From Candidatus Hydrogenisulfobacillus filiaventi (GTDB lineage Bacteria > Bacillota > Sulfobacillia > Sulfobacillales > R501), in contig LR778114.1 of assembly GCA_902809825.1 (NCBI GenBank), forward strand, positions 2,108,001-2,172,000: a stretch of 64,000 nucleotides of DNA, read 5' to 3'. This document shows positions 27,315 through 64,000 of this stretch, in pieces. Made by a program: the position numbers and the translations under genes. Every line of letters starts with the position of its first letter. The stretch's first letter is position 1. Below the pieces are notes generated by a model that saw nothing but the letters and a program-made list of their open reading frames with translations, searched no databases and had not been told where the DNA came from.

Positions 27315-28511
27315 TCAGGAGCGGCTGATGAGGTCGGTGCCGGCCAGCCAGCGCGGCAGACGCAGACCATGGGCCGAAATCCCCCATTCCTTGAAGATGG
27401 GGGTGTTCACGAAGGCATAAGCCAGGGCTTCCTTAGCCAGGGGCCACGTGCGGCCCAACGACGCTTCGCGCACCTCCTCATTCCAGAGGCTGCGGCGCAC
27501 AAACAGCCCTTCGCCCCCGCCCAGATCGAGCACACAGCTCATCTCATGCACATACTCGCGCTCCGGCCCGCTCACCGCCCCCAGGTCGCGGGCCAGGTTG
27601 TAGGCGGCCACCTCCGCCTGCAGCATGGCGGTGTGCCCCTGCTTGGGCCCCTCGAACCCCACCGCGCTGCCGGCCACGAAGACATCCGGATGCCGCTTAG
27701 CGCGCATAGTCTTGTCGGTCTCGATCCAGCCGCGGGGATTGTCCCCGGCCAGCGCCCGCTGCGCCTCATGCCCCCGGAAGGGCGGCAGCAGGATGGTGAG
27801 GCGGGATTCCAGCTCGGTGTCATCGCCCAACACCACCCGGTCGGCCTCCACCCGCTTAATGGTCACCGGCCCCCGGCGGGTGATGCCGCGCTCCGCAAAC
27901 GTCCGCACCATGAACTCGCCCGCCTCCGGTCCGGCCGGCGCCCACATCCGGGGGAGGGGATCCACAAACTGGATGGGACCCTCCTGGTGCAGGCGGGCCA
28001 TGCGGCCCTGCAGGGCCAGGGCCACTTCAAAGGCCGGACCCCCGGTCTGGACGTTCTGGCAGAAGCCCACCACCGCCGGCCCGCCCGTGTACTGCTCGAG
28101 CGCCGCCCGCAGGCGCAGGGCCTCCTCGCCGTTACACACCGAATAGCCGTATTCCGCCAGTCCCGGGATCTCCTCGGGCGCCAGCCGCTCCCCTAACGCC
28201 ACCACCAGCTTGTCGTAGGCGAGATCGCCCTCGGTCGTGGATACCGTCCGCGCCTCCGGGTCGATCCCGGTGACGGCCGCTGCCCGGAATTCGATCCCCA
28301 AGCGGCGGTAGGTGGGAGCCAGGTCGAAGGTGATGTGCTTCAGGTCCTGTTCCCCGAACGCCACCCCCACCAGGGAGGGCCGGTAGAGAAACTGCGGATC
28401 CTTGGCCACCACCGTGATGGTGTGCTGAGGCAGGTTGCGCAAATGGCGCCGCAGGCGCACGGCGGTGATAAGCCCGCCGAAGCCGCTGCCGGCAATGACA
28501 ATCCTGGCCAA
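27315..28511 (-). CDS. sqr: sulfide:quinone oxidoreductase-like flavoprotein
   Basis: 398 residues. The N-terminal FAD motif is IVIAGSGFGGLITAVRL. Three cysteines sit where SQR has its redox set: Cys126 (GYSVCNGEEAL), Cys151 (VVGFCQNVQTGGPAFE) and Cys326 (EMSCVLDLGGGEG). FVAGSAVGFEGPKQGHTAML is the second flavin contact, and a C-terminal amphipathic region could dock on the membrane. Expected reaction: sulfide oxidation with quinone reduction. The subtype cannot be fixed, and a related type II NADH dehydrogenase is less likely given the cysteines. Confidence 0.75.
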   Translation of the reverse strand: MARIVIAGSGFGGLITAVRLRRHLRNLPQHTITVVAKDPQFLYRPSLVGVAFGEQDLKHITFDLAPTYRRLGIEFRAAAVTGIDPEARTVSTTEGDLAYDKLVVALGERLAPEEIPGLAEYGYSVCNGEEALRLRAALEQYTGGPAVVGFCQNVQTGGPAFEVALALQGRMARLHQEGPIQFVDPLPRMWAPAGPEAGEFMVRTFAERGITRRGPVTIKRVEADRVVLGDDTELESRLTILLPPFRGHEAQRALAGDNPRGWIETDKTMRAKRHPDVFVAGSAVGFEGPKQGHTAMLQAEVAAYNLARDLGAVSGPEREYVHEMSCVLDLGGGEGLFVRRSLWNEEVREASLGRTWPLAKEALAYAFVNTPIFKEWGISAHGLRLPRWLAGTDLISRS

Positions 28512-34068: not shown

Positions 34069-34415
34069 CCGCCATTCCCCCTCCCTCGACACCCGGCGTG
34101 CCGGACAGCGGACCCGGCGATCACCGGTGGCCGCCTCCATCGTAACGGGCCCGGCCGGGCGCAGAAATGGGCCGCTCAGGCCATCCGGGCCCGCAGCCCC
34201 CGGGCCGCGCGTCCCCTGGGCCGCATGTCCTATGTTTTACAATTTCAGGATACCCAGTCAGGAATTTCCCCTGCCGCTGTCGAAATAGTTCATAATGGCT
34301 ATCAACCGCACCGGGGACGGCGCGGCCTGCCCGGTGGGCCCGGGGGCGCCATGATGCCTGCCGTGCCCTCGCCCGGCTCCCCTGACACGCTACCCGGCAG
34401 AGGAGGGTGCACCCG

Positions 34416-35132
34416 ATGGTGGATACGGGTACCTTCACTCAAATCGTGGTCGTAGGACGTTCCAGCATGCTATGCCAGACCCTGGCGCGCTGGCTGAGCG
34501 AAATCGGCAACGGGACGGCCAGGGTGCTGGAGCCCTCGGGCCTGGCCGCGGCCACCGCGGCCGATGCCATCCTGCTCCTATTGGAGGACGAAGCGGATCT
34601 CGCCCTGCTGCAACGTCTTTCCGCCCTCCCGGCCGGCTCCCGGCCGCACCGCCTGCTCCTGTTTCCGGAACTGCACTGGCCGCTGATGGAACGGGCCGCG
34701 CACGCGGGGCACGTGGACGCCATCATCGGCCCCCCGGTCTCCGCCCGCCTGGTCCGGAGGGTCTTGGACCTGATGGCCGGCTGCACCCACCACCCCCGTC
34801 CGCTCTGGGTGCTCGCGGGAGGCATGCCCGACGTGCTGCCGGACGCTGGTCCCCTGCCGCCGTCCGGGGCGCCCCCGGGCGGCCCGGTGTCCCTCACCCC
34901 GCGGGAACGGGGAATCCTGACCCTCCTCGACCGCGACTACAGCAACCAGGAGATTGCCCGCCTGCTGGTGATCTCCCCCCATACGGTCAAGCGCCGCCTC
35001 GAGCACCTCTTCCGCACGCTGGCGGTCAGTTCCCGCATGGAGGCCGTACATATCGCCCACCGCAACGGGCTCCTGCGCACCCGCCGGACGGACGCCGCCG
35101 GCCAGCCGCGGGCGGGCTGCTCCGCGCCGTAA
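34416..35132 (+). CDS. LuxR-type response regulator-like transcription factor
   Basis: 238 residues. An N-terminal receiver-like fold (QIVVVGRSSMLCQTLARWL, LLLLEDEADL) lacks an obvious phosphoacceptor aspartate pattern; the C-terminal HTH is LTPRERGILTLLDRDYSNQE plus IARLLVISPHTVKRRLEHLF. The ATG at 34416 has AGGAGGG at 9 bases. It points towards the lipoate cluster but is convergent with it. The target is unknown. Confidence 0.8.
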   Translation: MVDTGTFTQIVVVGRSSMLCQTLARWLSEIGNGTARVLEPSGLAAATAADAILLLLEDEADLALLQRLSALPAGSRPHRLLLFPELHWPLMERAAHAGHVDAIIGPPVSARLVRRVLDLMAGCTHHPRPLWVLAGGMPDVLPDAGPLPPSGAPPGGPVSLTPRERGILTLLDRDYSNQEIARLLVISPHTVKRRLEHLFRTLAVSSRMEAVHIAHRNGLLRTRRTDAAGQPRAGCSAP

Positions 35133-35195: not shown

Positions 35196-36155
35196 CTAGA
35201 GTACCGAGCAGCACTGCTGGTGGTAGCGGGCGGTCACGCCCTGACTACGGGCATAGGCGATGGTGGCCGGCAGGGGGTAGGCGATGCTTTGTACCCCCAC
35301 GTCCACTGCATAGCGCTCCATGGCCTCCTTCACCGGGCCCGGGGGCTTGGCGCATCCCAGGGAGATGGGCATCTCCGGCATCATCAGCCGGGCCGCGGCG
35401 AGCACCCGCGCCACGTCCTCCGCCGGCACCGGCGGCAGGCCCGCCATCGCGGTGCCAGGCAGTGGCTCCAGCACCACAATCACCAGCTGAGCGGCCCCCT
35501 CCTCCTGGATCATGCGCAGGGCCTCGAACTCGCCCCGGATGCGCCCGTAGTGCAGGCCCACCACCACATGCGGTACGGCAGCCAGACCGTTTTCCGCCAG
35601 GAGCCGCAGGGACTCCCGGTATGCCTCCACCGTACGATCCAGATGGTAGACCTCACGGATGGTGTCATTGTCCCCGATGATATCCAGCAGCACCTGGTCC
35701 ACCCCGGCCGCCTTCAAGCCGCGGGCCACCTCCGGCCGCACCAGGCCGGAGTGGACCAGCACCCGCATGCCCTGCGCCTTCAGTTCCGCCAGGGCGTCAA
35801 GGAAACGGTCCAGGGGGACGGTGCCGTCCTCCAGGCACCCGCCGCTGACCAGGACCCCCTCCGCCCCCTGCTGGGCCAGTTCGATGCCGAGGCTGCGGAA
35901 GCGGGCGGGGCTTTTGGCTGCGTGCATACTCTGCAGGATGCGGGTGCCGCAATGGTCGCACTTAAGGGCGCAGGCGCTGCCGGTGACGCTGATGGTCTCA
36001 AAGTGATGCGGCTCGTTGCGGTACTCCCCGCCGTCGTAATGCTTCTGGCTGGGGGCCGCGAAGAGGATTTCGGCCGGGAAATGGGCGCGGCTGGTGGCGC
36101 GGGCGCGCGCCACCAGGTCCTCCACCCGTTCCTCAAGCCAGTTCGCTGTGCTCAT
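35196..36155 (-). CDS. radical SAM lipoyl synthase subunit (LipS1/LipS2 type)
   Basis: 319 residues. The [4Fe-4S]-SAM motif is CALKCDHC (Cys63, 67, 70) followed by GVLVSGGCLEDG, and the C-terminus carries a CC pair (QQCCSVL). It is related to BioB/LipA-type radical SAM enzymes. With its neighbour it matches the two-protein LipS1/LipS2 system that inserts two sulfurs into octanoyl-carrier. Which of the two it is cannot be settled by eye. The ATG at 36155 overlaps the upstream gene by 23 bases. Last gene of the operon. Confidence 0.75.
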   Translation of the reverse strand: MSTANWLEERVEDLVARARATSRAHFPAEILFAAPSQKHYDGGEYRNEPHHFETISVTGSACALKCDHCGTRILQSMHAAKSPARFRSLGIELAQQGAEGVLVSGGCLEDGTVPLDRFLDALAELKAQGMRVLVHSGLVRPEVARGLKAAGVDQVLLDIIGDNDTIREVYHLDRTVEAYRESLRLLAENGLAAVPHVVVGLHYGRIRGEFEALRMIQEEGAAQLVIVVLEPLPGTAMAGLPPVPAEDVARVLAAARLMMPEMPISLGCAKPPGPVKEAMERYAVDVGVQSIAYPLPATIAYARSQGVTARYHQQCCSVL

Positions 36156-37284
36156 CATCGTCCGCACCCGCCCAATCGCCCCAGAGTTGTTGGCGGATCT
36201 CCTCCAGGTCGGCCGCATTCGGCAGGAAGGGGAAGTTCCGCAGCGGCTGGCTGGGCCGTCCGTTGCCGTAAGGGCGGTTGCAGGCGGTCTCCCCTGCGTG
36301 GTCGGGGCAGCCGGAGGTCATGAAAGGCCGGCCGGAATCCACGACGGCCTTCAGTTCCTCCGCCGGCAGGCCGTAGTCCACCACCTGGCCCAGGCGGTTG
36401 AAGCGGAAGTGCTCCAGACCCCATCCGCGCTCGTTGATGAGGTAGCGGCCGAGCTGGCAGCGGCGGTACTGTCCCATGGGCGGTTGCGGCCAGTCCTGCA
36501 GCAGGGTGCCGGGCTCGGGGTTGAAGGAGAAGAGGTGGGTCTCCACCCCCATGTCCTGGGCCTTCTGCACCGCGGCCAGCAGCTCGGCCTCCGTCTCGCC
36601 CAGCCCCACCACCAGGTGGATGCCCACCGTACCCGGGGGGAAGACGGTGGTAGCCTGCTCCACCACCCACCAGAAGTGGTCCCAGCGGTGCGGCCCCCGC
36701 ACCGGCAGGCCCCGGTGCTGGTTGAAGAGCTCCTCGGTGGCGGCGTCGATGGCCACATCCACCCGGTCGGCTCCGGCGTCGCGGATAGCCTCCAGCTGGC
36801 TGCGGTCCTTGATGAGCGTAGCGGTGATGAGACCGGAGATGAGGAGATGGCTACGCTCCCGGAAGCGGCGGATGATCTGCAGGGAGTCGGGTAGGGAGCG
36901 GCGGTTGGCCAGCATGCCCACGCACACCCGCTTCATCTGGTGGCGCATGGTGTTGGCGCGGTCGATAAGGTCGTCCACCTCCACCACCGGCCACTTGACC
37001 CGGATGAAGGTCCCCTCCTCCCGGGTCACCGGGCGCTCGCGGGACATACCGCAATACGAGCAGTTGGCGGTGCAGTTTTCGGGATAGGTGGTGAGGACGT
37101 TCAGCCCGTGCAGCTCAGTTTCCGGCCGGGCGAATTTGCCCTTCTCGTAGCCGAGGGTGATGGCGCCGGCCAGGGAGGTCTGGACATAGCGGGGGCTTTC
37201 GTACCGCTCCTCCAGCGGCGGGCGGTCCTCCACATCCTGGGCCACTTCCCGCACCACGCGCAGGGTGCCTTTCTCGGTCTTCAT
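36133..37284 (-). CDS. radical SAM lipoyl synthase subunit (LipS1/LipS2 type, long form)
   Basis: 383 residues. Radical SAM motif CTANCSYC (Cys71, 75, 78); a C-terminal cysteine pair in SGCPDHAGETACNRPYGN could ligate the auxiliary cluster that donates sulfur. HLVVGLGETEAEL is a typical radical SAM barrel strand. The ATG at 37284 overlaps the lipoate ligase stop by 4 bases (ATGA-type coupling). Together with the next gene it would replace classical LipA, which is not seen here. Confidence 0.78.
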   Translation of the reverse strand: MKTEKGTLRVVREVAQDVEDRPPLEERYESPRYVQTSLAGAITLGYEKGKFARPETELHGLNVLTTYPENCTANCSYCGMSRERPVTREEGTFIRVKWPVVEVDDLIDRANTMRHQMKRVCVGMLANRRSLPDSLQIIRRFRERSHLLISGLITATLIKDRSQLEAIRDAGADRVDVAIDAATEELFNQHRGLPVRGPHRWDHFWWVVEQATTVFPPGTVGIHLVVGLGETEAELLAAVQKAQDMGVETHLFSFNPEPGTLLQDWPQPPMGQYRRCQLGRYLINERGWGLEHFRFNRLGQVVDYGLPAEELKAVVDSGRPFMTSGCPDHAGETACNRPYGNGRPSQPLRNFPFLPNAADLEEIRQQLWGDWAGADDDEHSELA

Positions 37285-38375
37285 CCAGCTAACGCCCCTT
37301 TCGGGTCGGATTGGCTGCCCAGGGCCCGGGTCAGCACGGATACCCAGTCGGCCGGTTCCACGCCCAGATAGCGGGGGGCGTCGGCTTGCCGGTAATGGGC
37401 GATGACAATGGCCTCCAGCGCCTCCGGGTCGGCCGGCGCCTCCTTCAGGGCAGCCTCCAGATCCAGGACCGCCCGCTCGGGATAGACGAAGAAGTCGCCG
37501 GTGAGAAAAGCCCGCCGGATGCGGCCGGCCTTGCGGTCCACCACCAGGTGGGCGCGCAGGAGGCCCCCTGGCGCCTTATAGGCGGCGGATACCAGCTCCT
37601 GCCCGGCGGGGGCGCGCCGGCGGTCGATCCATTCCGGACGGGCGAAGTCGTCCCGGACGCGCCCCCATTCCTCCTCTTCATAAGAGGTGAGGGAACCCGG
37701 TTCCACCGCCACCCCCAGCACTTCCTCCACCGCCGACACCATAGCGGCCTTGACCGCGTCCAGGGTGGGGGCGTACCCGAGGATCTCGCGCATGGTGACA
37801 ATCCGCTGCCGGTAGGAATCCACCAGTTTATCGGTGAGCTTCTCGATCGGCAGGCGCAGCACATGGAGCATGGTCTCGATATCGAAATCCACCAGGATAG
37901 TGCCCTGGTAGATCATGGCGCTGCCCCATTCCGCACCCCCGGTGCCCGAGATCTTCCGGCCGCCCACCTCGATATCGTTGAGGGGCCGGAACTGGGCGGG
38001 GATGCCCCAGTGCTCCAGGGTGCGCACCACAATCGCGGAGAGACGGCGGTAGACGGTGTTGGGGTCCGGCGGCAGGCGGGTATCCGCCTTGGACAGGCTG
38101 ATCTCCCACCCCAGCTGCCGGGCGTCCATGTAGATGGCGCCGCCCCCGGTCACCCGCCGGTTCACCTCCACCCCCCGCTCGGCGCAGGCCGCCCGGTCGA
38201 CTTCCAGGTCCACGGCCTGGTGATACCCCACCAGGGCGGCGTGGGGGCGGAACTCCATGAAGCGGAGGGTATCGGGAGCCCGGCCGGCGGATCGGGCCCG
38301 CATCACCGCCAGGTCCAGCGCCATCTGCTGCCACGCCGGCATGGGCCCCGGATCGAGCAGCCGCCAGCGGTCCAT
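37281..38375 (-). CDS. lipoate/octanoate-protein ligase with C-terminal domain
   Basis: 364 residues. A BPL/LPL catalytic domain: NRRVTGGGAIYMD (lipoyl-AMP loop) and NDIEVGGRKISGTGGAEW with the catalytic lysine (GRKISG). The C-terminal ~100 residues (GGLLRAHLVVDRKAGRIRRA) form the LplA accessory domain needed for acyl activation, here in the same chain. It starts 1 base after the carrier-protein stop. Expected to load octanoate or lipoate on the adjacent GcvH-like protein. Confidence 0.85.
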   Translation of the reverse strand: MDRWRLLDPGPMPAWQQMALDLAVMRARSAGRAPDTLRFMEFRPHAALVGYHQAVDLEVDRAACAERGVEVNRRVTGGGAIYMDARQLGWEISLSKADTRLPPDPNTVYRRLSAIVVRTLEHWGIPAQFRPLNDIEVGGRKISGTGGAEWGSAMIYQGTILVDFDIETMLHVLRLPIEKLTDKLVDSYRQRIVTMREILGYAPTLDAVKAAMVSAVEEVLGVAVEPGSLTSYEEEEWGRVRDDFARPEWIDRRRAPAGQELVSAAYKAPGGLLRAHLVVDRKAGRIRRAFLTGDFFVYPERAVLDLEAALKEAPADPEALEAIVIAHYRQADAPRYLGVEPADWVSVLTRALGSQSDPKGALAG

Positions 38376-38810
38376 TTAGAGCTCCTCCGTTTCCAGTTCC
38401 GCCAGCATGGCGCGGTAGCGCTCGGGGCCCATGAGGCGGCTGACCGCGAATCCGGCCGGCACGGCCGGCTTCACCTTGATCAGCCAGCCCTTGTGATAGG
38501 GATCCTGGTTCACCACCCCGGGGGCCTCCTCAACGGCCTCGTTGGCCGCGATCACCACCCCGTCGAAGGGCGCGTAAAGCTGGCCGACCCACTTGCCCGA
38601 TTCCAGGCTGCCCCAGGGTTCCCCGGCCTTCAGCTCCGTGCCCGGCTTAGGCAGGGACACATAGAGGATGTCCCCGGCGGAGTCCTGTACGTAGTCGGTG
38701 ACCCCCATGGTAATCACCGCATCCTCCACCTGCGACCACTGATGGTACTGGTCATAGAAGCGGTCCTCCAGCACCTGCCAGCGGACGGGGACCGACTTGT
38801 TGAGCGCCAT
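38376..38810 (-). CDS. GcvH-like lipoyl carrier protein (LbpA type)
   Basis: 144 residues. Lipoyl domain with the modified lysine Lys73 in WGSLESGKWVGQLYAPFDG, and GVTDYVQDSAGDILYVSLP before it, as in glycine-cleavage H proteins. There are no gcvT/gcvP genes here. It lies among lipoate ligases and LipS-type synthases, the arrangement known for LbpA, the lipoyl carrier of the sHdr sulfur-oxidation pathway. The ATG at 38810 has AAAGGAG at 7 bases. A dual H-protein role cannot be excluded. Confidence 0.8.
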   Translation of the reverse strand: MALNKSVPVRWQVLEDRFYDQYHQWSQVEDAVITMGVTDYVQDSAGDILYVSLPKPGTELKAGEPWGSLESGKWVGQLYAPFDGVVIAANEAVEEAPGVVNQDPYHKGWLIKVKPAVPAGFAVSRLMGPERYRAMLAELETEEL

Positions 38811-38899
38811 GGTCTTGCTCCTTTCCCCGGCGGCAGCGCGCAACAGGCATAGACATGCCCGGGACGCCGGCGGCGCCGGATTGCGGAATGTGTCGGAAC

Positions 38900-39874
38900 T
38901 TAGCGTCCGGCCCTGGAGAGGGAGCCGGAAGCTTCCAGAAGGTCGGGCAGGGCGGCGTATGGGCCGCCGCGGGCAGCCAGCTGCTCCACGGCCGCCAGGT
39001 CCAGGGGAACCGGCAGGGACTCGTTGAGGCCCCAGATCGCCAGCAGGCGGCGGGCGGCGGTATCCACCTCGGCGATAAGCATGCGGCCGTCCGCCAGGGG
39101 TAGGGCCCGCACGAAAACGCCTTCCCGCACCTTTACCTGCTGCATCCGGCCGCTCAGCCGCTCCTGAGCCAGCCAGTCCGGATCGATCAGGGAGCGGCCC
39201 ACAGCCGCCACCGGGTCACGCCAGCGCTCCCAGGGCACCGGGCGGACCTCCCCGCCGAGATACGCCGCGTAGGTGCCTGCCAGCCCCTCCATCACCGCTT
39301 GCATGGATAGCTCCGCGAAGGCAGGATAGCGGCGCAGGGTGGTCAGCTGCCGCCGCATGCTGTCCCGGAAGGCGCTCCGGAACGCCGGGTGGGGGCTTGC
39401 CCGCACCTCCGCCATGCGGTCGACCGGGAAATCCAGTAGCAGGTTGCCGACCACCACCGCCATGTCGCCGATGTACCCGCCCCCGTTGCCGGAGACCTTG
39501 CGACCGTCAACCAGGATATCCGCGGGTTCCCGCAGCTCAGCATCCAGTCCCTGCTCCCGGAGGTAGCCGACCACCGGTTCCAGGGCCTGGCGGTACCACC
39601 CGCCGGGCGTGCGGTTGCGGCCCGCGGGGCGGAGGATGACCTGATAGAAGATTTGGCGGTCGTCCAGGTAGACCAGCGTGCCCCCTACCTTACGGCGGAC
39701 CACCGGTACCCCGGCAGCCGGGTCCACGTCGGCCAGGTCCTGATGCCGGCCGATGCAGACGTACGGCGAGGTGGGCCAGCAGAGCACCACCCCTTCCTCC
39801 CCCATCACCGGCAGCGCGTGGTAGAGGGCCTGCGAGGTCAACCAGTCGACGGGACCGGCCAGGTAGATGGGCAT
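38900..39874 (-). CDS. second lipoate-protein ligase-like protein
   Basis: 324 residues. The same fold as the other ligase but divergent: VVRRKVGGTLVYLDDRQIFY in place of RRVTGGGAIYMD, and DILVDGRKVSGNGGGYIGDM with the catalytic lysine. The C-terminal part contains VKVREGVFVRALPLADGRML, a possible accessory domain. First gene of the lipoate cluster, 89 bases before the carrier. The ATG at 39874 (or GTG 39877) follows GGGGATGATC. It may be an octanoyltransferase or an amidotransferase instead. Confidence 0.75.
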   Translation of the reverse strand: MPIYLAGPVDWLTSQALYHALPVMGEEGVVLCWPTSPYVCIGRHQDLADVDPAAGVPVVRRKVGGTLVYLDDRQIFYQVILRPAGRNRTPGGWYRQALEPVVGYLREQGLDAELREPADILVDGRKVSGNGGGYIGDMAVVVGNLLLDFPVDRMAEVRASPHPAFRSAFRDSMRRQLTTLRRYPAFAELSMQAVMEGLAGTYAAYLGGEVRPVPWERWRDPVAAVGRSLIDPDWLAQERLSGRMQQVKVREGVFVRALPLADGRMLIAEVDTAARRLLAIWGLNESLPVPLDLAAVEQLAARGGPYAALPDLLEASGSLSRAGR

Positions 39875-40435: not shown

Positions 40436-40813
40436 ATGACGGTGGCGCGGGATGCCTCCGACCTCGAGTACTGGCGGGCCTTCTTCCAGGAACACCCGCT
40501 TGCCTACCAGGTTCTGAAGCACACCTGGACCTACGGCCCTGATACCCCCACCATCATCCGCAAGCGCTTGCTGGGTCATCGGAGCGGGGTGGGGGTGGAG
40601 GTCATCCGCGAGGCCTATGCCCTGCTGCTGGAGGCCGGGCTGGTCGAGCGCATGCCCGGCAAGGAGCTGGACCGTAACCAGCTCACATCCTCGGTTAAGA
40701 AGACCCTCAAGCGGCGGGCGAAATACCATACCCCGCGCAAGACCCATACCTACTACCGGCTGAGCCGGACCGGCGAACTGGTGGCCCGGGCCCTCATTCA
40801 CGCGGAGGGTTAG
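40436..40813 (+). CDS. winged-helix protein, DUF2250-like
   Basis: 125 residues. A helix-turn-helix-type layout: YQVLKHTWTYGPDTPTIIRK, VIREAYALLLEAGLVER, then a wing and YYRLSRTGELVARAL, matching archaeal/Sulfobacillus-type DUF2250 proteins as I recall them. The start ATG at 40436 sits close to AAGGAGGG; the GTG 6 bases later is better spaced. It ends 4 bases inside the convergent hemerythrin gene. Confidence 0.6.
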   Translation: MTVARDASDLEYWRAFFQEHPLAYQVLKHTWTYGPDTPTIIRKRLLGHRSGVGVEVIREAYALLLEAGLVERMPGKELDRNQLTSSVKKTLKRRAKYHTPRKTHTYYRLSRTGELVARALIHAEG

Positions 40814-41277
40814 GCGCCTGTTCCCGCGTCCTCCTGCTGCCGGCGCCCTTGCACCAGGTTGCGGATGAGACCGCGCTCGCCGGGGGAGACGTTGCGCTCC
40901 GCCTCGGGATACAGGCTCTCGTTTTCATGCTCCACATGCTGGACCAGCAGCAGGCGCAGGCGGGCGGCGCTCTGCCGGGCCAGGTCGGCAAGACCCGCGC
41001 GCGCGTATTCCAGCACCTGTTCGTTCAGGCGGAGGATGGCCAGGTGCTCGGCCACATGGTGGCGCACGTTCTCGGCATCCTCGCCATGCTGTTCCAGGAA
41101 GGGCAGCAGGATCTCCTCCTCATCCCGGAAATGCCGGGACAGCAGGCCGGCAAAACCGGCCTCCTCCGCCACCACGTCCGCCGGCGCCTCCACCGCCATG
41201 CGGTCGAGGATGCGCAGCAGATGGTCGTGATCCTCTTCAAAGATGGCCCAAACCTTGTCCGGGGTCCGGCTCCCCAT
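40810..41277 (-). CDS. hemerythrin-domain protein
   Basis: 155 residues, a four-helix bundle with the diiron ligand pattern EEDHDHLL, SRHFRDEEEILLPFLEQH, VRHHVAEHLAIL and LVQHVEHENESLYPEAE. It binds O2, NO or iron in related proteins. The ATG at 41277 follows GGAGGTG at 9 bases. Longer upstream frames are not protein-like. Confidence 0.88.
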   Translation of the reverse strand: MGSRTPDKVWAIFEEDHDHLLRILDRMAVEAPADVVAEEAGFAGLLSRHFRDEEEILLPFLEQHGEDAENVRHHVAEHLAILRLNEQVLEYARAGLADLARQSAARLRLLLVQHVEHENESLYPEAERNVSPGERGLIRNLVQGRRQQEDAGTGA

Positions 41278-41344
41278 CCCCGACCGCACCTCCCCGCGCT
41301 CCGTAGTCCGGCGCCGTCCGCGGGCACCGTTGCCTCCCTTCTGT

Positions 41345-41350
41345 AGTATA
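41345..41350 (-). promoter_or_regulatory. -10 hexamer upstream of hemerythrin gene
   Basis: Minus-strand TATACT, 67 bases before the ATG; no matching -35. An inverted repeat GGTCAA/TTGACC lies further upstream, near 41410-41435. Confidence 0.35.
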
Positions 41351-41566
41351 AGGGGGCGGGGCCGGACCCGGGGCCGCAGGCTCCTGGTTGTACCGCCTGC
41401 CACGGGAATTGGGTCAATAGGCCCTGGATCGGTTGACCGTTGGGCCCGGTTGGGCCGCCTACGCGACAGGTCCGGACGTCTATGCGGCGCCGGCCGGATC
41501 CTATGGTCAAGTTCAAACTGAACCGGCGTCCGATCCCATCCCGAACCGCGGTGCAACCGTTCCGGC

Positions 41567-63717: not shown

Positions 63718-64000
63718 ATGGCTACTGAACCCATCACCCGCCCCGACACCCCCACGGACATCCCCGTCGAGGAGGAGCCCCGGCCCCTGAAGCGGGTTGC
63801 CATCATCTGCCGTGCGGGGACCTACGACACCATGGTCACCGTGCTGGGCTGGGCCCACGCCCTCTGCTTCGACGCGGAGGAGGGGACGGAGGTAAATGTG
63901 CTCTTCACCGCCTGGGCGGCGGAGCTGCTCAAGAAGGGCCATCTCGACCAGGCGGTCTTCCCCCAGGACTGCGCTCCCCGCAAGGAACAGTTCCTGCAGA
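63718..64000 (+). CDS. DsrE/peroxiredoxin-like family protein, cut by the window edge
   Basis: 94 residues are visible. After a Pro/Thr-rich start, KRVAIICRAGTYDTMVTVLG and WAHALCFDAEEGTEVNVLFT match DsrE-family folds (sulfurtransferases of the Dsr/Tus/sHdr systems), with a cysteine in ICRAG and another in CFDAEEG. The ATG at 63718 has AAAGGAAG upstream. Sulfur-trafficking DsrE proteins commonly accompany TusA and Hdr-like genes, which may lie beyond the edge. Confidence 0.7.
   Translation, partial: MATEPITRPDTPTDIPVEEEPRPLKRVAIICRAGTYDTMVTVLGWAHALCFDAEEGTEVNVLFTAWAAELLKKGHLDQAVFPQDCAPRKEQFLQ

Follow-up and report, generated by a model that had tools for sequence, protein, structure and literature searches.

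LbpA, the lipoyl carrier of sHdr sulfur oxidation, is a member of the H-protein family and is recognized by two conserved cysteines that are absent from GcvH (PMC6067878). In the sLpl(AB)-LipS1/LipS2 pathway that serves it, sLpl(AB) takes free octanoate or lipoate as substrate (PMC10332631), and sulfur is inserted first by LipS2 at C8 and then by LipS1 at C6 (PMC9585515, PMC10332631). In Bacillus subtilis (LipM/GcvH/LipL) and human (LIPT2/GCSH/LIPT1), LipL and LIPT1 relay the lipoyl group from the H protein to E2; LIPT1 is an LplA-like ‘half-ligase’ whose C-terminal region has lost activation (PMC7253636). Here we analyzed a block of five genes, in the order lig2-carrier-sLpl-LipS2-LipS1, in a stretch of 64,000 nucleotides (positions 2108001-2172000, hereafter the window) of the single-contig, 2.57 Mb genome of Candidatus Hydrogenisulfobacillus filiaventi. 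The block is a variant of the sLpl(AB)-LipS1/LipS2 pathway with its own carrier and a degenerate ligase. It shares with the described pathway (PMC10332631; Thermococcus kodakarensis, PMC9585515) the three enzyme types, all radical S-adenosylmethionine (SAM) and auxiliary-cluster ligands and the association with sHdr. It differs by an additional, cysteine-less carrier, a degenerate second ligase and the absence of lipT from the cluster.

Gene content and pathway identity

The five genes run co-directionally on the minus strand from 39874 to 35196, as proposed in a previous reading of this DNA made without database searches (the sequence-only reading):

38900..39874, minus strand: lig2, LplA-fold ligase-like protein, proposed lipoyl transferase (PF21948, 91.6 bits; alignment of 15 orthologues; own clade with a Shimodaira-Hasegawa-like approximate likelihood ratio (SH-aLRT) of 100)
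38376..38810, minus strand: H-protein-like lipoyl carrier with Lys73 (ESGKWVG), proposed dedicated assembly carrier (PF01597, 127 bits; 16 orthologues)
37281..38375, minus strand: sLpl(AB)-type lipoate/octanoate:protein ligase (PF21948, 150 bits; NF053751 and NF053749 below cut-off; alignments with PDB ligases)
36133..37284, minus strand: LipS2-type radical SAM protein (NF053743, 212.4 bits, below the cut-off of 270; motif comparison)
35196..36158, minus strand: LipS1-type radical SAM protein (NF053742, 234.8 bits, above the cut-off of 230; motif comparison)

The packing is tight, with four bases shared by sLpl(AB) and LipS2, an overlap of LipS2 with LipS1, and the carrier adjoining sLpl(AB). 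The two ligase-like proteins and the GcvH-like carrier of the sequence-only reading were recovered as LplA-B_cat matches (150 bits for sLpl(AB), 92 bits for lig2) and a GCV_H match (127 bits). Its residue numbers also held: Lys73 of the carrier is Lys84 of an open reading frame (ORF) starting with TTG, renumbered from the ATG at 38810 that is common to the orthologues, and C63-C67-C70 of LipS1 are Cys83-87-90 of a 340-aa ORF, renumbered from the ATG at 36158.

Family models and the complete set of known radical-SAM and auxiliary-cluster ligands support the assignment to the LipS1/LipS2/sLpl pathway, as the earlier reading had it. LipS1 passed its model, and carried the CxxxCxxC motif (CALKCDHC), a histidine in PHVVVGLH, a cysteine in SLGCAKPP and a C-terminal cysteine pair in HQQCCSVL. 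These are the counterparts of the auxiliary-cluster ligands His159, Cys230, Cys276 and Cys277 of T. kodakarensis LipS1 (PMC9585515).

LipS2 contained the predicted C71-C75-C78 motif (CTANCSYC), the auxiliary Cys121 (KRVCVGML) and a final cysteine pair (SGC-x8-CNRP, residues 326/335), corresponding to Cys85, Cys276 and Cys279 in T. kodakarensis (PMC9585515). The pair is spaced C-x8-C, unlike the C-x2-C of T. kodakarensis LipS2. NF053743 matched over the full length and was by far the best family; the score below the curated cut-off is probably due to the wide spacing of this pair. We describe the protein as LipS2-type, of a divergent subgroup. The wide spacing was also found in block-type LipS2 and at loci L080, L113 and L114, and the short one in LipS2 near true gcvH genes of sHdr-free relatives in the class, where readable.

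The ligase sLpl(AB) looked intact. Its LplA catalytic domain has the RRVTGGG loop, ND and the lysine (GRKISG), and is followed by a C-terminal LplB domain with GDFF, although the LplB model NF053749 gave 47.7 bits against a cut-off of 65.

The carrier and lig2

The window carrier resembles LbpA (PMC6067878) in belonging to the H-protein family and in having its lipoyl lysine in ESGKWVG. Its residues and its position in trees nevertheless identify it as neither LbpA nor GcvH. It contains no cysteine, and thus not the two that define LbpA. In the 30 LbpAs collected, the C-terminal cysteine was present in all, the N-terminal one in 27, and both in 27. Among 19 block carriers the N-terminal cysteine was never found, a cysteine near the C-terminus occurred once, and no carrier had both.

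Trees were built from 59 and 70 H-like proteins. In both, GcvH and LbpA formed separate, well-supported clades, with the block carriers in neither. LbpA and carriers associated with GlcD/Lut proteins made up one clade (100/99), again without the block carriers. Placing the window carrier inside the LbpA clade was 44 log units worse (approximately unbiased (AU) test, p 0.0006), and uniting all block carriers with LbpA 21 log units worse (AU p 0.013). A position of the window carrier inside GcvH cost 22 log units (AU p 0.013). All 19 block carriers could be held as a single clade at no cost (p 0.48). The deep branching order of the three H-protein classes is uncertain, because the sequences are short and a tree in which the 14 window-type carriers form the sister group of GcvH was not rejected (p 0.54). 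Against GcvH models, the carrier scored 128 for PRK01202 (cut-off 117) and 113.9 for TIGR00527 (cut-off 115.85), and its lipoyl loop reads KWVG, versus KSVSDIY in GcvH.

True LbpAs are encoded elsewhere in the genome, which holds five H-like genes: one gcvH, two in a type I shdr region, one in a type II cluster, and the window carrier. A search for shdrC1B1AHC2B2, suggested by the sequence-only reading, located sHdr twice (types as defined in PMC11582611), with three LbpAs in total. The type I shdrC1B1AHC2B2 cluster lies at ~657-664 kb, in a region with two LbpAs, DsrE genes and lig3, a third ligase that keeps GGG, ND, lysine and GDFF like sLpl(AB). The type II cluster (~1.096-1.106 Mb) has one LbpA, a fused shdrB3 (Fer4 + CCG), etfBA and a large Fe-S protein. 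Both are ~1 to 1.5 Mb away from the window. By position too, the carrier was rejected as an LbpA, lying at 2.146 Mb with the shdr clusters at 0.66 and 1.10 Mb. The identification of the carrier with LbpA in the sequence-only reading was abandoned, given the two missing cysteines and the rejected clade.

The block contains no glycine-cleavage genes, but the genome does: a gcvH-gcvP-glyA set is located elsewhere. No gcvT was adjacent to gcvH in the stretch read, and it was not searched for in the rest of the genome. LipA and LipB genes adjoin a 2-oxoacid dehydrogenase E2 gene, so that the genome, with LipS1/LipS2 in the block, holds both lipoyl synthase systems. Two of the findings that the sequence-only reading had named as contrary to its view, gcvP and LipA/LipB, hence do exist; however, the carrier falls outside the GcvH group, and the genome contains sHdr genes. 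The genome, which has LipB, also encodes a LipL/octanoyl-GcvH transferase-like protein (L020:7919-8917, models below curated cut-offs), reading AYCEGPYDLVVDGRK and carrying the LipL-type cysteine motif.

The protein lig2 is an altered LplA-type ligase. Invariant in 15 aligned orthologues were Cys33, His45, Arg61-62, Gly65-66, and Lys127 followed by SGN. As noted before, lig2 lacks the RRVTGGG loop, reading RRKVGGT instead; GG[T/S] was found in 13 of the 15 orthologues, and [A/C]D replaced ND in all of them. Ligases of solved structure, as far as the alignments displayed them, show GG(G) and an N directly before the D. The C-terminal LplB part of lig2 is without the GDFF segment that is kept by sLpl(AB), lig3 and several other ligases. 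From the motifs of functional ligases (RRxxGGG, ND, lysine, LplB GDFF), lig2 thus retains only the lysine, Lys127, and has probably lost substrate activation. The predicted structure (predicted local distance difference test 90) matched LplA structures with Z 22-25, and the matches ran, with decreasing Z, from ligases through LipB to biotin ligases, a comparison by which ligase and transferase are not separable. We discarded an identity with LipL, since lig2 lacks the cysteine that LipL-like proteins have before the YDL...GRK motif and reads REPADILVDGRK. Human LIPT1, the LplA-like half-ligase, is a precedent for such a half-broken ligase. A transferase acting on the carrier would be its likeliest role, at about even odds by this analogy. 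No viral contig scanned with lig2 gave a match.

Distribution and genomic context

We surveyed 154 genomes of the class (thresholds of at least 125 bits for the carrier and at least 170 bits for lig2, one lig2 being a fragment). Block-type LipS1, the carrier and lig2 co-occurred in exactly the same 15 genomes, the carrier being constantly paired with lig2. All 15 had shdrB1: the block was present in 15 of 32 sHdr genomes and in none of the 122 others (Fisher p 2e-12, ignoring kinship). The gene order was kept in Sulfobacillus-order genomes and in Alicyclobacillus tolerans, altogether in more than 12 other genomes, which puts the observation far beyond chance. A link to one sHdr type was discarded, because the block accompanies either type, or the two together. 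Another 17 sHdr genomes were without carrier, lig2 and block-type LipS1. These would have to lipoylate LbpA in another way, most simply by lig3 and LipA, the latter being near-universal in the order (38/42 genomes).

In genome G042 the block lies directly downstream of shdr-lbpA-lbpA. This genome also has a flavin adenine dinucleotide (FAD) oxidoreductase gene between LipS2 and sLpl (L071:11711-12817), probably LipT-like; no such LipT-type gene was found in the window cluster.

The link to sHdr proposed in the sequence-only reading is valid within the class, but not beyond. A lig2 profile search across 398 genomes of the phylum retrieved G221 and G258, from another Bacillota lineage, in which genes for a 2-oxoacid dehydrogenase E2 and for GlcD- and GlcF/LutA-like oxidases adjoin the five-gene block. 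No shdrB1 homologue was detected in either at E 1e-15. Their lig2 falls inside the window lig2 clade (SH-aLRT 100). G221 encodes also a second H-like carrier; the matching stretch of the G258 contig was masked. Client carriers from G221/G258 and from lactate-type operons fall with LbpA (100/99), the block carriers elsewhere, so the distinction between client and block carriers runs through two unrelated metabolic contexts.

The block was seen with GlcD, a GlcF/LutA-like protein and 2-oxoacid dehydrogenase E2 at L113:5293-15174, L114:3047-14945 and L110:2232-11817 (there cut by the contig end), all in genomes without shdr; L113 and L110 have a second H-like carrier. Further sHdr-free operons, at L079:2662-10629 (G002), L082:6416-17286 (G027) and L123:1-9963 (G264), comprise a lactate permease, GlcD, LutA-/LutB-like Fe-S oxidoreductases and an H-like carrier, with a lipoate ligase beside or near. 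Perhaps they represent an undescribed lipoyl-dependent system of 2-hydroxyacid oxidation; a literature search on such operons returned nothing.

Around the block, the neighbours reported earlier were confirmed. The SQR-like gene is a pyridine nucleotide-disulphide oxidoreductase at window positions 27315-28511 (PF07992). The DsrE-type gene (genome positions 2171790-2172203) extends from window position 63790 across the window end, and its score was weak (25.1 bits). The window has no sHdr gene, the whole-genome shdrB1 search matching two other places only. The block is flanked by genes for a hemerythrin-domain protein (40810-41556), on the upstream side, and for a LuxR-type regulator (34407-35132), which faces the 3' end; each could be a redox or regulatory partner or a chance neighbour.

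A proposed lipoyl relay and its alternatives

We give an even chance to the block being a self-contained module for lipoyl assembly and relay. In such a module, sLpl(AB) would use ATP to activate free octanoate (or lipoate), which it would load onto Lys73 of the carrier. LipS2 would insert sulfur at C8 and LipS1 at C6, converting the octanoyl-carrier to the lipoyl-carrier, and lig2 would pass the lipoyl group to the working carriers, here mainly the three LbpAs of the two sHdr complexes. The chemistry of sLpl(AB), LipS2 and LipS1 is that expected from published work on homologues. In favor of a relay, the carrier is encoded with the assembly genes and the working LbpAs with the shdr genes. The presence of the block, with its own carrier, beside other clients in G221 and G258 fits a general assembly module. 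As in B. subtilis and human (PMC7253636), assembly would take place on an H-like carrier and be followed by transfer; unlike there, the carrier is apart from glycine cleavage, LipS1/LipS2 insert the sulfur, and the transfer by lig2 is putative. Amidotransferases replacing LipL in Bacillota have been suspected (PMC10332631).

The wider proposal, which we put a little short of even, is a relay that operates apart from glycine cleavage. H-proteins of a third class would do no metabolic work, act solely as the platform for lipoate synthesis by LipS1/LipS2 and be paired with an activation-deficient LplA, the clients being sulfur-oxidizing LbpA in some bacteria and, in others, 2-oxoacid dehydrogenases or the carriers of 2-hydroxyacid oxidases.

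Several observations weigh against a relay. Proteobacterial sLpl(AB) loads LbpA directly, with no extra carrier (PMC6067878, PMC10332631). Within the class, every block genome but G041 encodes lig3 next to its LbpA genes, and this ligase, complete by its looks, could charge LbpA without an intermediary. In G002, a related sLpl-LipS2-LipS1 set stands without a neighbouring block carrier or lig2. Where LipL and LipM have their cysteine, lig2 has none, and the loss of activation is unevenly marked across lig2, because G041, G042 and the sHdr-free lineage retain GGG.

Alternatively, the carrier could function directly in sulfur oxidation or a related redox reaction, as an additional, cysteine-less lipoyl protein resembling LbpA, with lig2 and sLpl(AB) as ordinary ligases for different targets and the LbpAs loaded directly. 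The strict association of block and sHdr in the class, the block position in G042, the lipoyl lysine and ESGKWVG common to carrier and LbpA, and the catalytic lysine retained in lig2 all point this way. We consider it unlikely, however, since 17 sHdr genomes dispense with the carrier, the same block is found without sHdr, the presumed sulfur-binding cysteines of LbpA are missing, the gene sits among assembly and not shdr genes, and lig2 has lost active-site residues.

It is rather improbable that LbpA is built directly by sLpl(AB) or lig3 with LipS1/LipS2, with the carrier as a lipoyl reservoir or regulator and lig2 as an accessory or specificity protein. The proteobacterial precedent (PMC10332631) and the competent-looking lig3 beside LbpA in nearly all sHdr genomes agree with it, but it leaves unexplained why carrier and lig2 are inherited inseparably with LipS1/LipS2 in two client contexts. 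A plain GcvH duplicate for glycine cleavage is very improbable: the carrier passes PRK01202 and falls just under TIGR00527, but a separate gcvH exists with gcvP and glyA, the GcvH clade was rejected, and the lipoyl loop is KWVG, not KSVSDIY.

At stake are how LbpA acquires its cofactor in Gram-positive sulfur oxidizers, and whether LipS1/LipS2 act in a relay or in direct assembly. With only five small genes involved, both questions, the route to LbpA and the mode of assembly, are directly testable. If the carrier were an assembly platform only, it would represent an H-protein that has no metabolic task itself, and its lipoyl relay would be uncoupled from glycine cleavage.

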